Assembly: GCF_030816855.1 (NCBI RefSeq)
Contig: NZ_JAUSYK010000001.1
Coordinates: 62,001 to 126,000, forward strand
Length of the DNA stretch: 64,000 bases
DNA from: Arthrobacter sp. B3I4
GTDB taxonomy: Bacteria; Actinomycetota; Actinomycetes; Actinomycetales; Micrococcaceae
Direction of reading: 5' to 3'
Of the stretch, positions 2,878 through 19,563 are shown one piece after another. The notes beneath the pieces are model-generated. The model saw only the letters and a list, made by a program, of their open reading frames with translations. It had not been told where the DNA came from and searched no databases. The first letter of the stretch is position 1, and the number at the start of each line of letters is the position of its first letter. The translations under genes and the position numbers were made by a program.

Positions 2878-3567
2878 CTAGCTGCGAATTTCGCTGTCGT
2901 GCTGGGCGCGCTGCTTGACGCCCTCGATGTGGGCGATCATCTTCTGCCGCGCCAATTCCGCGTCACCGGCCTCGAACGCGCGCAAAATTTCGGTATGTTC
3001 CGCGATCGCGAAATCAGCGTCGGTGACGCCGAGTCCACCGAAGAAGCGGAAGCGCTGCACCTGACCGCCCAGCGCGTTGTACGCGGAGAGCAGGAACTGG
3101 TTGTCCGCGTACTCGGCGATAAGCCGGTGGAAGCGTTCGTCTGCCTCCCAGTAGGAGCGGAACTCCGCGAAGGAGGGTCCCCGGGGCGCGGCCTTCAGGT
3201 CGGCGATGGCCTGGGCCAGCTGGGCGGTCAATTCCTTGTCGGCGCGCCGGCAGGCCATCAGGGCGTTGGCGGGTTCGATCACCAGGCGCGCGTCCATCAG
3301 GTCGGCGAGCTCGTCCCGGGTGAAAAGCGGCGCCACGCGGTAACCGCGCAGGGCGGCGCGGCGCACCATGCCGGTCGCCTCCAGCCGGGCGAGCGCCTCC
3401 CGGACCGGCGTCGGCGAGACGTCCAGTTCCCGGGCCATGCCGTCGATGCTGACCGGTGTCCCGGCCTGCAGCCGGCCGTCCATCAGCGCGATGAGCAAAG
3501 CCTCGTACACGTGGTCGGCGAGGACCTGCCTGCTGACCCCCCGGGGGGCCTGATCCTTGATAGCCAT
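2878..3567 (-). CDS. GntR-family transcriptional regulator (FCD subfamily)
   Basis: A 229-residue GntR regulator. Residues about 10-75 form the winged helix (recognition region SPTPVREALARLEATGMV), followed by an all-helical FCD effector domain with His and Asp residues suited to metal binding (FHRLIAEY, AEHTEILRAFE). It sits inside the operon, 28 bp after the dehydrogenase gene and before the TIM-barrel gene. A TCCTATAG core lies 8 bp upstream of its ATG and the full palindrome lies just downstream of the gene, so it may repress itself and the distal genes in response to a pathway intermediate. The effector is unknown. It is one of two GntR genes in this locus. Confidence 0.88.
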   Translation of the reverse strand: MAIKDQAPRGVSRQVLADHVYEALLIALMDGRLQAGTPVSIDGMARELDVSPTPVREALARLEATGMVRRAALRGYRVAPLFTRDELADLMDARLVIEPANALMACRRADKELTAQLAQAIADLKAAPRGPSFAEFRSYWEADERFHRLIAEYADNQFLLSAYNALGGQVQRFRFFGGLGVTDADFAIAEHTEILRAFEAGDAELARQKMIAHIEGVKQRAQHDSEIRS

Positions 3568-3574
3568 ACAGAAA

Positions 3575-3582
3575 TCCTATAG
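3575..3582. promoter_or_regulatory. Second copy of the TCCTATAG operator core
   Basis: TCCTATAG begins 8 bp upstream of the GntR ATG at 3567 and matches eight of ten bases of the palindrome at 2824-2833. The position suits autoregulation. Confidence 0.35.
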
Positions 3583-3595
3583 CCGTAATCGCAGC

Positions 3596-4471
3596 CTACT
3601 GGCGCCCGCGCAGGACCTCGATCACGGTGGAGTCGTCCTGCCGGCCAAGGCCTGCGCGCCGCCCGCTGAGGTAGAGCTGTTCCGCCGCGGAGGCGAGCGG
3701 CGCCGGGTAGGTGCTCTCCCGTGCCGCGTCCACTACCAGGCCCATGTCCTTGACGAAGATGTCCAGGGCGCTGCGGACCTCGGTGTTGTCCGGGTCCACC
3801 ATGCGGGAGCCCCGGTCGTCGAACATGAACGACGCCGCGGCGCCGGAGCGCAGCACCTCCCAGGTCTGTTTGGGATCCAGGCCGAGCGCCTCGGCGAAGG
3901 CCAGGGCCTCCCCCGCCGCGGCGATGTGCACACCGCAGAGCAGTTGGTTGACGAGCTTGACCTTCTGTCCGTCGCCGACCTCCGTTCCCACGACCGGGGC
4001 GGAGCTCGCCATCGCATCCAGCAGCGGCCGCACCACGGCCAGGGCACGCTCGGAGCCGCTGACCATCATCAGCAGGTCGCCAGTGGCGGCCCGCTTGGTA
4101 CCGCCGGAGACCGGCGCGTCGACGAGTTCGACGTCGAACGCTGCCAGCCGCTGTGCGAGCGACACCACGGCGGCCGGGCCGACGGTGGCCATCAGCAGGA
4201 CAACGGTCCCCGGGCGCAGCGCGGCGGCGAGCTGGTCGGAGCCGAACAGCACCGCGTCGGCCTGGGCCGGCGTGGCAACCATCAGGGCGACGACGTCGGC
4301 CTCCGCGACCGCTTCCTTGGCCGTGGCAGCGGGGGTAAGGCCCGGGACGGCCAGGGACTCCGCCCGTCCTTCCGCCACGTCGAAGGCCGCGACCTCGTGT
4401 CCGGCCGCGGCGAGGACGACCGCCATCGGTCCGCCCATCGCCCCCAGTCCGATCCATCCGACCTTGCTCAT
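3596..4471 (-). CDS. NAD(P)-dependent beta-hydroxyacid dehydrogenase, L-threonate dehydrogenase (LtnD)-like
   Basis: A 291-residue member of the 3-hydroxyisobutyrate/6-phosphogluconate dehydrogenase family. The N-terminal Rossmann motif is GLGAMGGPM at residues 8-16, the substrate-binding loop is DAPVSGGTKRAATGD near 120, and the catalytic Lys lies in GDGQKVKLVNQLLCG near 170. Family members next to DUF1537 kinases oxidise sugar acids such as L-threonate or D-erythronate to 2-oxo acids. Its ATG overlaps the upstream kinase stop (ATGA at 4468-4471), so the two are translationally coupled. The substrate is inferred from context; another four- or five-carbon sugar acid is equally possible. Confidence 0.85.
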   Translation of the reverse strand: MSKVGWIGLGAMGGPMAVVLAAAGHEVAAFDVAEGRAESLAVPGLTPAATAKEAVAEADVVALMVATPAQADAVLFGSDQLAAALRPGTVVLLMATVGPAAVVSLAQRLAAFDVELVDAPVSGGTKRAATGDLLMMVSGSERALAVVRPLLDAMASSAPVVGTEVGDGQKVKLVNQLLCGVHIAAAGEALAFAEALGLDPKQTWEVLRSGAAASFMFDDRGSRMVDPDNTEVRSALDIFVKDMGLVVDAARESTYPAPLASAAEQLYLSGRRAGLGRQDDSTVIEVLRGRQ

Positions 4472-15914: not shown

Positions 15915-17072
15915 TCAGTGGCGGCCGAAACTCGTGAGCTTGCGTCCAATGCGAGACCAAACAGTGGTCCTGCCCAGCTCGGCTAGGAGAACCTCTTTGG
16001 CCTGTTGAGCCCGATGCGGGGCACCGGCGGTCCGGAAATGCACCTCTGCCTCTCTCAACGATTGACGAGCAGCAACCTTGTCCCCGACGGCAAGATAGGA
16101 CCTCCCCAAAAGAAGGCAAACGTCTCCAAGGATTTGCGGCGTCAGGCTTCTTACTGTTGCCCGGATCTCCTCCAGGAGCGTAACGGCAGACCCGGCGTCA
16201 CCTGCAAGATAGCTCCAGTGCGCCCTGTTGCGCTTGAGAAGCAAGACGTCGGTCTCACTGCCTCCAATGACATCGGTGGCCAGCTCAGCTCGCTCGATGC
16301 ATCGAAGGGTATCGGCGTCCGCTACATTAGCCGCCAGGCGCATGGCAGCGGAGGCTTTATTGAATTTAGCCCACACGTCCAGGTTTTTGGCCGGCGAAAA
16401 AGTTGCTGCCGCAAGTTCGTGGTAGCGGAGCCCCTCCTCTACTCGGTCACAGAGAAACGCGACGTTTCCGATGACCCAATAGGCCTTACCTGCCAACTGA
16501 TCTTCGATATCGTCAGATACGACACCAGCGAGGTTCATACTTTCCCGCCAAGCGTCGCTGAGCTTCCCACCGTCAGCAAGTGCAGCAATCAGCGCCTGCC
16601 TAGCCTTGATGTTGAGTTCCACTTCCGACTCGCCAGCTGTCAGATCCGTAGCGGCCCGGGCGGACGCAGCAGCTTGCTCGAGCAAACCGGCACCTTGGCG
16701 CGCCTTTGCCAGCAGAATATGGACGCGAGCTTGGTCATGTAAATTTGCCTGCTCGAGACTGGTGATCAAGCTGGCGGCCAGTGTCTCGCAGTCTCCGAAG
16801 CGCTGAGCGTCCAGAAGATTTTCGGCCTGGAGAAAGGTCATATTCCACCAAGACGCGAAGTTCCCGTCCTGCAAAGCGATTTCCGCCGCCCGCTCTGCAC
16901 TGTTTGCAGCGTCGGCAAAGGCGTGGTTACTACGTTGCTCATGCGCCTTGAGCTCAGCGGCTGCATAGGACGGCGAAACAGAGTGCATGAATTGATTATC
17001 GGGGTCGCGGTTAGGGAATGCGACCAAGGCGCGCACAAGTCGAACCAGCGGGGCTCGGTCTCTCGCGCTCAT
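15915..17072 (-). CDS. TPR-like helical repeat protein, possible peptide sensor
   Basis: A 385-residue cytoplasmic protein made almost wholly of helix-turn-helix pairs of TPR type: AERAAEIALQDGNFASWWN, ARVHILLAKARQGAGLLEQA, KAYWVIGNVAFLCDRVEEGL and DVCLLLGRSYLAVGDKVAAR. I see no DNA-binding domain, signal peptide or enzyme motif. The length and make-up resemble Rap-type RRNPP proteins, which bind secreted peptides. The frame is open to 17255, but that version would run antisense through the peptide gene, so I chose the ATG at 17072. Its GC content is visibly lower than its neighbours. The divergent gene 117 bp away encodes a small secreted peptide. Function inferred, not shown. Confidence 0.75.
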   Translation of the reverse strand: MSARDRAPLVRLVRALVAFPNRDPDNQFMHSVSPSYAAAELKAHEQRSNHAFADAANSAERAAEIALQDGNFASWWNMTFLQAENLLDAQRFGDCETLAASLITSLEQANLHDQARVHILLAKARQGAGLLEQAAASARAATDLTAGESEVELNIKARQALIAALADGGKLSDAWRESMNLAGVVSDDIEDQLAGKAYWVIGNVAFLCDRVEEGLRYHELAAATFSPAKNLDVWAKFNKASAAMRLAANVADADTLRCIERAELATDVIGGSETDVLLLKRNRAHWSYLAGDAGSAVTLLEEIRATVRSLTPQILGDVCLLLGRSYLAVGDKVAARQSLREAEVHFRTAGAPHRAQQAKEVLLAELGRTTVWSRIGRKLTSFGRH

Positions 17073-17129
17073 AACATAGGGCGATTCACTCTGGGGCAAA
17101 TCGTTACAACGCGGCGTGTCGATCACCCT

Positions 17130-17135
17130 TATACT
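17130..17135 (+). promoter_or_regulatory. Probable -10 box of the small secreted peptide gene
   Basis: TATACT, five of six to consensus, 53 bp before the ATG at 17189. A clear -35 box at standard spacing is not evident. Confidence 0.45.
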
Positions 17136-17188
17136 GAACCTGCAATCACATGAGTCACATACGCCTCTCAGACAACAGGAGCCATAAA

Positions 17189-17341
17189 ATGAAGAAAACC
17201 CTCGCAACACTTCTTGTAGCTGGCGCCTTGGCTGCTGCGGGCCTCTCGGCCGCATCAGCAGTGTCCGCCAACGGCGGCGAAGCCGGTCAAGGTTCAGTTA
17301 TGGCCGTTGACTACTGGCCGAACTCGACCCCGAAGAACTAA
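17189..17341 (+). CDS. Small secreted peptide, candidate signal precursor
   Basis: A 50-residue precursor. Residues 1-27 form a classic Sec signal peptide: MKK, a hydrophobic core LATLLVAGALAAAGLSA, and a cleavage site after AVSA. The predicted mature peptide has 23 residues, beginning NGGEAGQGS and ending VDYWPNSTPKN, with no Cys. AGGAG eight bases before the ATG at 17189 supports this start over an in-frame ATG at 17150. A strong terminator follows 15 bp after the stop, so it is a single-gene transcript. It diverges from the TPR-like protein, an arrangement like signal peptide/receptor pairs. An alternative is a small cell-surface peptide with no signalling role. Confidence 0.75.
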   Translation: MKKTLATLLVAGALAAAGLSAASAVSANGGEAGQGSVMAVDYWPNSTPKN

Positions 17342-17356
17342 CACCCAAACCGCGAG

Positions 17357-17390
17357 GGGCGGGGACCGGATTCAACTCCGGTCCCCGCCC
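17357..17390 (+). terminator. Intrinsic terminator after the secreted peptide gene
   Basis: A perfect 14-bp GC-rich stem (17357-17370 with 17377-17390) and a 6-base loop TTCAAC, followed by TTTGTCGT. Confidence 0.88.
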
Positions 17391-17447
17391 TTTGTCGTAA
17401 CTCGGAGGCATGCCGTTACAGCCGTCGTACGACGCCCGCACTAACAG

Positions 17448-18983
17448 CTACTGCGAAACGTGCCAATGCTCGCTGACCAGGGCCTCAATCGCCTCCGCGG
17501 CCGCCGGGCGCCCGAAGTAATACCCCTGGCCGCTGGCGCATCCCAGCCGGACAAGTTCCTCGGCCTGCTCGGCCGTCTCGATACCTTCGGCCACCGCTGT
17601 GAGTCCGCAGGCGTGGATCAGGTGCAGCACGGCCTCGACGAACCGGCCCTGTTCCTCATCTGTTCCCAGTCCGTCAATCAGGCTCCGGTCGATCTTGACG
17701 ACGTTCACCGGGAGCCGCCGCAGGTAGCTGATGGACGAGTAGCCGGTCCCGAAGTCGTCGATCTCGAGCTGCACGCCAAGCTGGCGCAATCCGCTGAGTG
17801 AGTACTTGTCGACGTCGCCGCCCGTAACGGCCATGGACTCCGTCAGTTCGATGATGAGGTTTGACGCGTCCACACCGGTCTCGCGGAGGATGTCCTGGAC
17901 GTGCTCGATCAGTTCAAGGTTCTGCAACTCGGTAGTGGAGATGTTGACCCTGACCGTGAATTCACTCTCCAGCGGCAGCCGGTCCTGCCAGTCGCGCAGC
18001 TGGCGGACCGCATTGCGCAGCACCCAGTGGCCCAGCTCCACGATCATTCCGGTCTCTTCGGCCAGCGGAATGAACTCATCCGGCATCAGGAGCCCGCGTT
18101 CGGGGTGGTTCCAGCGCACCAGCGCCTCAACGCCCTCGATCCGTCCGCTGGCCAGCTCCACCACGGGCTGATAATGCAGCGTCAGCTGGTCTTCGTTGAT
18201 GGCTCTGCGCATCTCGGTGACCATCAGGCTCTGCAATCTGCGGGCGTACAGCAGCGCCGGCTCGAAAATCTTGATCCCGCTGTGCGGCTGGGCCTTGGCG
18301 GCATACATGGCCGTGTCCGCTTCCATCACCAGGTCGTCAACGGACTGTCCCGGCTCGGCGACGCGCACTCCGATGCTGCTGCCGCAGGTGATCCGGAGGT
18401 CACCGATCTCCAGGCTCTCGCTCAGCGCCCGGAGGATCCGGTTGGCGACCCGCCGGGCACGCACAAGGTTCGATTTGGGCAGCATGACGGCGAACTCGTC
18501 GCCGCCCAGCCGCGCCACGGTGTCGGTGACCCGGACGGCTTCCTGGAGCCGGCGGGCAATGACGCGCAGCACGTCGTCGCCCGCGCTGTGTCCCAGCGTG
18601 TCGTTGATGCCCTTGAACGAATCGAGGTCGAGAATCAGCAGCGCGGGCGGCAGCTCGCCGCGCAGGGTCTCATCGAGTGCGTGGCTGAGCACCGCGTTCA
18701 GCGCGGTCCGGTTCGCCAGCTGGGTCAGCGGATCGGTCAGTGCCATCCGTTCCAGCTCGACCTGCGCCTCGCGGAGCATGGCGGTCCGGCTCTCGACCCG
18801 CTCCTCGAGCTCCTGGTAAATGGTCTGCAGGTCATCGGCCATCAGATTGATGCCTGCGATGACGGCGGCGACGTCGTCGCGTGCCCCGGAGTGCGGGATC
18901 CTGGTGCTCAGATCGCCGCTGGCAATCCGGACGATGCCCTCCACCAGGTTGTGCAGGCGCGGGTCTGGAACATCACTTTTCAC
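17448..18983 (-). CDS. GGDEF-EAL bifunctional cyclic-di-GMP protein
   Basis: A 511-residue c-di-GMP turnover protein. Residues 1-80 resemble a HAMP-like segment and coiled coil without membrane helices. The GGDEF domain has an intact RLGGDEF at 159-164 and an RxxD inhibitory site exactly five residues before it (R151-D154). The EAL domain has EALVRW at 286-291, DDFGTGYSS and a late AVAEGIE motif. Both halves keep catalytic residues, so it may make and break c-di-GMP. It starts at a GTG (18983) inside the end of the upstream STAS-like gene (11-bp overlap), so translation is coupled. It lacks a membrane anchor, so the STAS-like partner may carry the signal. Confidence 0.92.
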   Translation of the reverse strand: MKSDVPDPRLHNLVEGIVRIASGDLSTRIPHSGARDDVAAVIAGINLMADDLQTIYQELEERVESRTAMLREAQVELERMALTDPLTQLANRTALNAVLSHALDETLRGELPPALLILDLDSFKGINDTLGHSAGDDVLRVIARRLQEAVRVTDTVARLGGDEFAVMLPKSNLVRARRVANRILRALSESLEIGDLRITCGSSIGVRVAEPGQSVDDLVMEADTAMYAAKAQPHSGIKIFEPALLYARRLQSLMVTEMRRAINEDQLTLHYQPVVELASGRIEGVEALVRWNHPERGLLMPDEFIPLAEETGMIVELGHWVLRNAVRQLRDWQDRLPLESEFTVRVNISTTELQNLELIEHVQDILRETGVDASNLIIELTESMAVTGGDVDKYSLSGLRQLGVQLEIDDFGTGYSSISYLRRLPVNVVKIDRSLIDGLGTDEEQGRFVEAVLHLIHACGLTAVAEGIETAEQAEELVRLGCASGQGYYFGRPAAAEAIEALVSEHWHVSQ

Positions 18984-19563
18984 TCGTGTAAGGCCTTAAC
19001 CATTCAAGGGCTGCTGTCCGTGAGCTGAAGAACTCGGCCGGAATCGATTCGGTCCGCGAGCGCAGCAGATAGTGCGCGATCACGCGGTCCACCGGGCTCT
19101 CCCCCACCAGGGCGAAGGCTGCCGCGGCAATGGAACCGGCGTAGACCTGGCGGGCTTCCACGCTGACGCCGACCACACCGGAAATGACCAACAGGACCGC
19201 CATCCGCTTGCCGTTGGCGAGCGCCCGGACGGCCGCGCCGGCCGCCCGGGCCTCCGGACCTTCAATCTCACGGTTCGGCGGCAGTGCGACTTCGATGACA
19301 CCGCACTGAAGTAGCCGGACGTCGATGACTGGGGCGCCGGTCAACTCAGCGCCGGCCACCTCCGCACCAGCCACCGCCACGTCGGCGGCGCTGGGTCCGG
19401 TCAGCCCAAGCTCGGCCTCCAGCCGCGCCAGGTCCGGCTTCGTCACGGTGAGCTCCAGTGCAGGCACGGACGACGGCGGCGCCTCTGCGTCAGGCGCTGC
19501 GGTGGGGGCTTGCACTTGTTCCGGGAGCCGGCCCTCCGGCGCGGCCGGCGCTTCGACCGTCAC
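18973..19563 (-). CDS. STAS/SpoIIAA-like protein coupled to the GGDEF-EAL gene
   Basis: A protein of about 196 residues. The first 75 residues are Pro/Ala-rich and look disordered. The rest resembles SpoIIAA-like STAS proteins: a beta strand DVRLLQCGVIEVALP, a helix EARAAGAAVRALANG, a hydrophobic strand RMAVLLVISGVVGVS, and the end PAEFFSSRTAALEWLRPY typical of the group. The only in-frame start I find is the GTG at 19563, which has no ribosome-binding site. It overlaps the stop of a 34-codon ORF (GTGA) that does have one. It may sense stress or energy state for the c-di-GMP enzyme encoded next. The fold assignment is moderate. Confidence 0.65.
   Translation of the reverse strand: MTVEAPAAPEGRLPEQVQAPTAAPDAEAPPSSVPALELTVTKPDLARLEAELGLTGPSAADVAVAGAEVAGAELTGAPVIDVRLLQCGVIEVALPPNREIEGPEARAAGAAVRALANGKRMAVLLVISGVVGVSVEARQVYAGSIAAAAFALVGESPVDRVIAHYLLRSRTESIPAEFFSSRTAALEWLRPYTSEK

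Follow-up and report, generated by a model that had tools for sequence, protein, structure and literature searches.

A candidate RRNPP-like peptide-signalling pair with a Trp-Pro peptide core in Arthrobacter sp. B3I4

What might be the role of a helical repeat protein whose gene is transcribed away from a very small gene for an exported peptide in Arthrobacter sp. B3I4? The two genes lie within a 64,000 nt stretch of the genome (contig NZ_JAUSYK010000001.1, positions 62,001–126,000; hereafter, the window), and a preliminary description had proposed them as a peptide-signalling pair resembling the Rap/Phr and Rgg/SHP systems of Firmicutes. The pair is quite probably a secreted-peptide/cytoplasmic-receptor signalling system of the RRNPP-like kind in Actinomycetota, the receptor being a tetratricopeptide repeat (TPR) protein of a Rap-like branch that carries no helix-turn-helix (HTH) domain. 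This reading draws on the two genes and their co-conservation, a conserved Trp-Pro core in the peptide and its tandem amplification, a second, HTH-bearing receptor with its own precursor in the same genome, and the gene neighbourhood, all of which are read from sequence.

A profile scan of genome contigs, using one genome per GTDB species, returned 91 relatives of the receptor, of which 80 were kept. A script with no motif requirement found an upstream open reading frame (ORF) with a signal-peptide-like leader and a Trp-Pro core in 75 of these, and a second look, part of which required Trp-Pro, found such a precursor in 80/80. The precursors nearly always adjoin a receptor and are divergent from it, and 28 of an additional 29 loci also have a Trp-Pro precursor, so the expectation that the two genes are conserved together is borne out. 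Across 692,024 bp surveyed, the motif was present in 75 of the 82 small secreted-like ORFs located at a receptor start and in 6 of the 172 located elsewhere, five of which are themselves precursors of the system. Chance or artefact as the origin of the pair is rejected by these three comparisons (motif-free 75/80, 80/80, and 75/82 versus 6/172), and the pair is genuine. Precursors exceed 100 amino acids (aa) in three relatives (L007, L015 and L025; L numbers denote loci). In L074 and L077 two receptors stand in tandem with the precursor between them, and none was found there for the first receptor. In Arthrobacter sp. MA-N2 the precursor (L035:2082-2378) is about 1.6 kb from the receptor, perhaps through an insertion.

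The core was compared across 84 precursors, comprising those of the 80 loci, the second precursors of L072 and L078, and two from the genome of strain B3I4 itself; a spurious ORF of L080 was dropped. It follows the pattern x-[GNDEYQ]-[WYNDS]-W-P, and is followed by N, D, H, K or the end of the precursor. A single copy is found in 39 precursors, with two in 22, three in 9, four in 10, five in 3 and six in one, so that 45/84 carry two to six tandem copies (for example, six TGWWPN in L007 and five PGWWPD in L028). Multi-copy propeptides, with up to six copies, are known among the RRNPPA systems of Firmicutes (PMC9765709; this and the other PMC articles are cited from excerpts), and the copy number is therefore a shared trait and not new as such. 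Part of clade B has precursors that terminate in IGWWPN, which sets a C-terminal limit to the core. In RRNPP systems the mature peptide is the C-terminus of the propeptide; the core has this position across much of clade B as well as in the HTH-type pair, and in the window precursor it is followed by five residues. L072 and L078 each carry two tandem receptors with their own, differing precursors (IDDWPH versus VGNWPDGTTTT or SGNWPD; L072:2066-2239 and 3535-3735, L078:2139-2321 and 3645-3812), and constitute a natural test of signal specificity.

The receptor was previously described as a protein of 385 residues encoded 117 bp from the peptide gene. Both figures need revision. L001 and L002, the relatives closest to the window receptor, both have a stop codon two codons before the ATG at 16988. 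The receptor has an identical database entry, which is 357 aa long, as are most of the next-best entries. The start at 16988, and with it a length of 357 aa, is for these reasons most likely correct, and the intergenic gap becomes 200 bp. Intergenic regions were parsed for 70 loci, and in all of the 64 that were used for box counts a GATAAT or similar box is found 5–8 nt before the receptor ATG. The mRNA of the HTH-less receptor is therefore probably leaderless; in three HTH-bearing relatives that were inspected, a normal Shine-Dalgarno site precedes the receptor gene.

The all-helical, TPR-like nature suggested for the receptor agrees with its AlphaFold2 model, a TPR superhelix with a predicted local distance difference test (pLDDT) score of 94.6, the first element of which is already the first repeat helix. 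The absence of a DNA-binding motif is likewise upheld, as no HTH was found in the Pfam scan or in the model. NprR, RapH, RapI and the Rap protein of pLS20 are found among its fold matches in the PDB, together with a large number of other TPR proteins, and the top matches are LGN-type adaptor complexes. A viral fold library gave only generic TPR proteins. Neither window protein reached a curated Pfam or NCBIfam cut-off (the Pfam TPR match of the receptor falls below it), and the receptor (P0001) had no match at E 0.01 in PHROGs or PADLOC. Residues W171, N175, W206 and R217 (window numbering) are invariant in 12 diverse receptors from two families. When relatives from Jiangellaceae are added, W171 is still invariant and the other three are kept at at least 90%.

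The divergent gene for a 50-residue exported peptide ending in VDYWPNSTPKN is present as described, as is its ribosome-binding site (Table 1). Its Sec-like leader was judged by eye to cover residues ~1–24 or 1–27, and the KK start, hydrophobic core and AxA sites were judged by eye and with a crude script. The claim that the gene has its own -10 element and strong terminator stands in part. A TATACT box and a very stable hairpin are there, but the hairpin lacks an extended run of T, and neither a sigma-70 promoter nor a terminator was detected by a strict consensus scan. Upstream of the -10 box in clade A is a conserved element that may be an activator or sigma site. With one mismatch or fewer, its CGGCGTGTC form occurs in 29/32 clade-A intergenics (shuffled expectation 0.6) and its GGCGTGTC form in 31/32 clade-A loci (shuffled expectation 2.2), and both occur in 0/32 of clade B. 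Direct repeats like TCACATGAGTCACAT were seen in the leader of the precursor mRNA (window 17146-17160), with similar ones, by eye, in many clade-A loci.

Table 1. Features of the receptor-precursor pair, its neighbours and the paralogue. Positions are those of the window unless a contig is given.
Feature	Position	Strand	Remarks
Receptor gene	15915..16988	minus	357-aa HTH-less TPR superhelix protein; start corrected (earlier annotated start 17072)
GATAAT, -10-like box	16995..17000	minus	6 nt before receptor ATG
CGGCGTGTC / GGCGTGTC box	17112..17120	plus	8-9 nt upstream of precursor -10 (clade A; 9 nt in window)
TATACT, -10-like box of precursor gene	17130..17135	plus	Missed by strict consensus scan
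AGGAG ribosome-binding site of precursor	17177..17181	plus	
Precursor gene	17189..17341	plus	50-aa putative exported propeptide MKKTLATLLVAGALAAAGLSAASAVSANGGEAGQGSVMAVDYWPNSTPKN, divergent from receptor gene
Trp-Pro core VDYWPN	17306..17323	plus	Single copy; taken as signalling core
19-bp hairpin 3' of precursor	17352..17395	plus	-41.2 kcal/mol, z -7.7; terminator-like
HAMP-GGDEF-EAL cyclic di-GMP (c-di-GMP) enzyme	17448..18983	minus	Candidate output
DUF7793 protein	18973..19563	minus	E 9.8e-16; second candidate output partner
Paralogue P0123	G000:C1:1258686-1259681		420 aa, XRE-HTH + TPR

A second relative of the receptor, P0123, is encoded about 1.18 Mb away in the same genome and shares 42% identity with it. 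Its N-terminal HTH_31 domain (1.3e-11) is followed by a TPR_6 match just over the threshold (26.5 bits against a cut-off of 26.3); beyond HTH matches, weak TPR matches and one weak non-HTH match in PADLOC, profile scans placed it in no known family. The adjacent, divergent precursor (in L082) contains three copies of VGNWPDPM, giving an XRE-HTH, TPR and propeptide layout like that of PlcR and NprR. A match was obtained in all 61 genomes of the genus; by a hand tally, the HTH-less form is present in 33 of them as well. HTH loci were sampled from the 60 other genomes (n = 39), and a search that included Trp-Pro found a precursor in 39/39, degenerate in L143; the HTH sequence motif was recognised in 37/39. 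These 39, together with L079, L082, L158 and L160, were examined for a promoter element (44 were given, L080 was not parsed), and in 43/43 a 40 bp inverted repeat, TTGACA-N28-TGTCAA, is found at the HTH-type promoter. Its second arm is downstream of the -10 box, where the promoter has no need of it, and an exact match occurs once in the genome of strain B3I4. The paralogous locus is as would be expected for an autoregulated RRNPP transcription factor, with P0123 as the putative DNA-binding protein.

A Foldseek search with the P0123 model supports the comparison with PlcR, as the best natural match is the PlcR-PapR7-DNA structure 3u3w (E 5.6e-7), at rank 3 after two designed TPR proteins, with low template modelling (TM) scores of 0.41/0.58. 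At the sequence level, profile A4 meets PlcR (3.4e-8) and ComR over the HTH only, and its TPR part matched no RRNPP protein among the 60 of 121 matches listed. The receptor tree, which omits L011, L033, L036, L043 and L076 (no start assigned), is compatible with a single loss of the HTH; HTH-less receptors as one clade agree with it, at a support of only 61 and with long branches flagged. Alignment A2 took in 52 of the 80 loci. Two HTH-type loci are unusual. One, G052:C1:3486083-3487074, is split over two frames and 79% complete, and is a pseudogene or a sequencing error; the other, L079, is a Micrococcaceae-like HTH receptor pair on a contig labelled Acidobacteria bacterium, a metagenome-assembled genome, and is likely to be a binning mistake.

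The neighbouring GGDEF-EAL gene had been put forward as a possible output, and it is indeed a persistent neighbour. A HAMP-GGDEF-EAL gene adjoins the receptor in 74/80 loci, and its position upstream in 38 and downstream in 36 indicates that the association was kept through rearrangement. The gene is behind the second receptor in L074 and L077, and ORF calls overlap in L066 and L069. The six loci without it are L004 (a short contig), L051, L072, L078 and the HTH-type L079 and L080. Among 75 enzyme copies (74 loci and the window) the GGDEF motif is present in 73 and the EAL motif in 74, and in 33/33 genomes of the genus with an HTH-less receptor the gene occurs on the same contig within ~3 kb (a partial match in G052). 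Because the enzyme flanks the receptor so consistently and in two arrangements, c-di-GMP is the likely output of the pair, a link made by neighbourhood. Relatives of the DUF7793 protein were found by BLASTP in 55/81 loci (the 80 and the window), and in part of clade B the gene sits between receptor and GGDEF-EAL (one case confirmed by Pfam). A GAF-HisKA-HATPase kinase family is found upstream of the precursor in 34 loci (one member domain-checked); the clade-B kinase, e.g., L038:2008-3651, is possibly a further partner. Six SBP_bac_5 (Opp-type binding) proteins of strain B3I4 score over the cut-off and are candidates for a re-import of the peptide.

The low GC content of the region had been taken to suggest transfer. 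The receptor gene does have a GC content of 0.586 compared with 0.675 for the window, but the conclusion of recent transfer is unsupported: the neighbour genes do not differ in close relatives, L002 and L003 among them, the receptor is below its flanks in 59/80 loci (mean 0.627 versus 0.648), and no relative of P0001 was found in plasmids and phages (tblastn, E 1e-5) or viral contigs (pattern and tblastn). In the plasmid and phage searches, P0123 matched over HTH stretches only, in eight Streptomyces plasmids and one phage record.

Related pairs were sought more widely in the Actinomycetes. Other genera of the family have strong relatives with Trp-Pro precursors (L160-L162 and L164-L166; none was found for L163), and at the level of the order 26/297 genomes match, several by weak partial matches. 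In one further family, three GGSWPT copies lie beside an HTH receptor (L167), a precursor of L168 ends in SDTWPA, and L169 has none. A precursor was sought and not found for L163/L187 (G330), L151/L169/L193 (G092) and L090, nor was one found for the further HTH-type copies L182-L186 of five genomes. At the class level, 298/394 genomes match at 1e-5, many over the HTH alone, and weak full-length XRE-TPR relatives are among them, some with divergent Trp-Pro precursors. Inspection by eye of 24 class loci (L195-L218) gave a plausible Trp-Pro precursor in nine (L195, L197, L198, L200, L207, L208, L209, L217 and L218, with no ribosome-binding site for L195, L209 and L217), a related one without Trp in L215, and none in 14. 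Among 40 further upstream stretches (seven of them for re-examined receptors), Trp-Pro occurs in four (L219, L223, L256 and L257, of which L256 is without a clear leader); the other 36 comprise 10 with a leader and a PG..CC-like end without Trp, one with a WNGPW end and 25 with none, six of these last having Trp-Pro ORFs that were judged spurious. Repeats of DIEWP, DIGWP or DISWP are found in divergent precursors (L197, L200 and L208), and PDWP..CC ends in L207, L209, L217 and L218, the relatives of L207 being Jiangellaceae. Divergent exported peptides ending in a conserved Cys pair are encoded at L207, L209, L217-L219, L221, L224, L225, L227, L232, L237, L238, L241, L243 and L244, all loci of one family; Trp-Pro precedes the pair in a subset only.

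The receptor of L208 has matches in 41 plasmid records, 39 of which are from Streptomyces. Eight Streptomyces plasmid loci from the 41 were opened, and they gave one clear precursor (L264), two DDDIGWP ORFs without a clear leader and five loci with none. The clear case, from Streptomyces sp. NBC_01006 (NZ_CP108701.1), is WP_331742133.1, a 74 aa protein with three DIGWP copies that is divergent from the HTH protein WP_331742130.1. The XRE-TPR regulators of these plasmids (L259-L266) adjoin genes for non-ribosomal peptide synthetases, ketosynthases, ATP-grasp proteins, acyl-carrier proteins or major facilitator superfamily transporters. Peptide control of secondary metabolism by the Streptomyces plasmid pairs is possible, with a clear precursor in L264 only. 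The evidence is evenly balanced as to whether there is a class-wide superfamily of Trp-Pro pheromones, in which XRE-TPR receptors with divergent precursors would extend from Micrococcaceae (GNWPDPM, GWWPN) to Streptomyces with its relatives (tandem DIGWP, DISWP, DIEWP) and Jiangellaceae (PDWPGMCC). One branch within Micrococcaceae would then have lost the HTH and become Rap-like beside a c-di-GMP enzyme, and signalling of the RRNPP type would exist outside Bacillota, whether by parallel evolution or by descent from a shared root. The distribution beyond the family is a lead, built on peptide calls judged by eye and not on a controlled test.

If the window pair is an RRNPP-like signalling system, Sec would export the precursor, which signal peptidase and additional proteases would trim to a short mature peptide around the core (VDYWPN or VDYWPNSTPKN); an oligopeptide permease would re-import this peptide, and the TPR receptor would bind it in its concave groove. 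As the receptor is without the N-terminal HTH of its in-genome paralogue, it would work in the manner of Rap, through contact with another protein, the HAMP-GGDEF-EAL and/or the DUF7793 protein being the most likely target, and so couple population density (or export status) to c-di-GMP. Three observations temper this picture. More than half of the class-level loci have no precursor, which also lowers the odds of a class-wide superfamily. A full-length GGDEF-EAL enzyme, 57–60% identical, is present in 25/28 genomes of the genus without the HTH-less receptor; the receptor thus seems to have been added to an enzyme that is older, and an obligate partnership of the two is unsupported. Lastly, covariation of peptide and receptor, proposed earlier as a check, favours the picture but is marginal. 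Peptide residue P-2 (before the core glycine) changed 14–15 times on the receptor tree, 9–10 times on the same branches as receptor position 64 (e.g., L008 with I and I64, L016 with V and F64). Among 1,064 Fisher tests this pairing gave the lowest value, 5.8e-10, followed by 8e-5 for the second; the test ignores that long branches change everywhere. Weighting by branch length gives p 1e-4, and weighting by branch activity p 2e-5, the nine shared changes (of 14) never being reached in 50,000 draws; L074 and L077 were left out of the weighted test. Position 64 is a candidate only, because of its site at the turn between helices A and B. Set against 1,064 tests, the weighted values slightly lower confidence in the signalling interpretation.

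The same gene anatomy would be seen if each cell sensed only the peptide of its own making, as a timer or secretion-stress sensor reporting export or proteolytic status, with binding to the receptor but no message between cells. Pump-probe circuits with RRNPP receptors have been discussed for Bacillus (PMC7055314), and the conserved box at the clade-A precursor promoter could mean that expression follows an internal cue; such self-sensing is nevertheless unlikely, as the tandem amplification of the core (45/84) and its change between close species have the appearance of selection acting on a signal outside the cell and on its code. That the peptide is small, exported, Trp-rich and variable would also suit an antimicrobial or surface-active product, with the TPR protein as its regulator or immunity factor. 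Repeats are known in certain bacteriocin precursors. No gene for export or maturation was recognised among the window neighbours, where no systematic search for them was made, and the related system, whose receptor bears an HTH and whose promoter contains an inverted repeat, fits a signal better, which makes an antimicrobial role improbable. Finally, TPR solenoids commonly serve as adaptors and the best structural matches are to LGN-type adaptor complexes, so the receptor might be a cytoplasmic chaperone that, for instance, escorts the precursor to the Sec machinery. Conservation is found in the secreted core and not in the leader alone, and both an HTH and an operator-like repeat go with the paralogous receptor; a chaperone for a peptide that is no signal is accordingly very improbable.

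Compared with known systems, secreted-peptide signalling through the window pair would be most like Rap/Phr of Bacillus. In both, a gene for a Sec-type propeptide accompanies that of a cytoplasmic TPR receptor without an HTH, the receptors being similar in size, and both may have a protein rather than DNA as target; according to the titles of PDB entries, RapH and RapF bind Spo0F and ComA. This likeness, already proposed, is strengthened by the in-genome HTH-TPR paralogue with its multi-copy precursor. The window pair differs in its host phylum, Trp-Pro core, c-di-GMP enzyme neighbour and divergent gene order (rap and phr usually share one direction), and has no shown sequence homology to Rap/Phr. 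The likeness to Rgg/SHP of streptococci extends to the presence of a receptor-peptide gene pair and is weaker than was suggested, since Rgg has an HTH, and SHPs, which are smaller, exit through PptAB (PMC9765709), whereas the window precursor has a Sec-type leader. P0123 resembles PlcR/PapR and NprR/NprX in domain layout, adjoining propeptide and the 3u3w fold match, and differs in divergent gene order, GNWPDPM-type peptides, its occurrence in Actinomycetota, low TM-scores and a PlcR sequence match confined to the HTH. It also resembles the AloR/AloP pairs of Paenibacillus polymyxa, which combine HTH-bearing TPR receptors with propeptides that yield short C-terminal peptides (PMC7425212), and which are from Bacillota and have other peptides. 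Of the RRNPP/RRNPPA features listed in PMC10075063, the pair shows receptor size (357 aa, and 420 aa in the paralogue, within a range of 250–500 aa), TPRs, and an adjoining propeptide of 10–100 aa with a Sec-type leader (by eye). We classify the pair on its build, descent shared with the Bacillota receptors being only possible, as RRNPP-like signalling, a known kind, what appears to be new being the Trp-Pro form of the peptide in Actinomycetota and an HTH-less branch whose link to c-di-GMP comes from its gene neighbours.

Peptide quorum sensing with cytoplasmic TPR receptors is treated as a matter of Bacillota (Firmicutes) in PMC10075063, PMC9765709 and PMC12700828, while the signals of Actinobacteria are described as typically small molecules (PMC10075063), such as the gamma-butyrolactones given for Streptomyces (PMC13220807). 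No report of this Trp-Pro system was found in the published literature, in a search that did not cover bioRxiv and covered subscription papers sparsely. If the proposed signalling is correct, a large phylum of soil bacteria, perhaps including antibiotic-producing Streptomyces, would have a genetically encoded peptide language, legible in genome sequences and open to inexpensive testing with synthetic peptides. The branch represented in the window would link peptide signalling to c-di-GMP, and the presence of HTH-less and HTH-bearing forms in one genome would offer a test of how Rap-like receptors arise.
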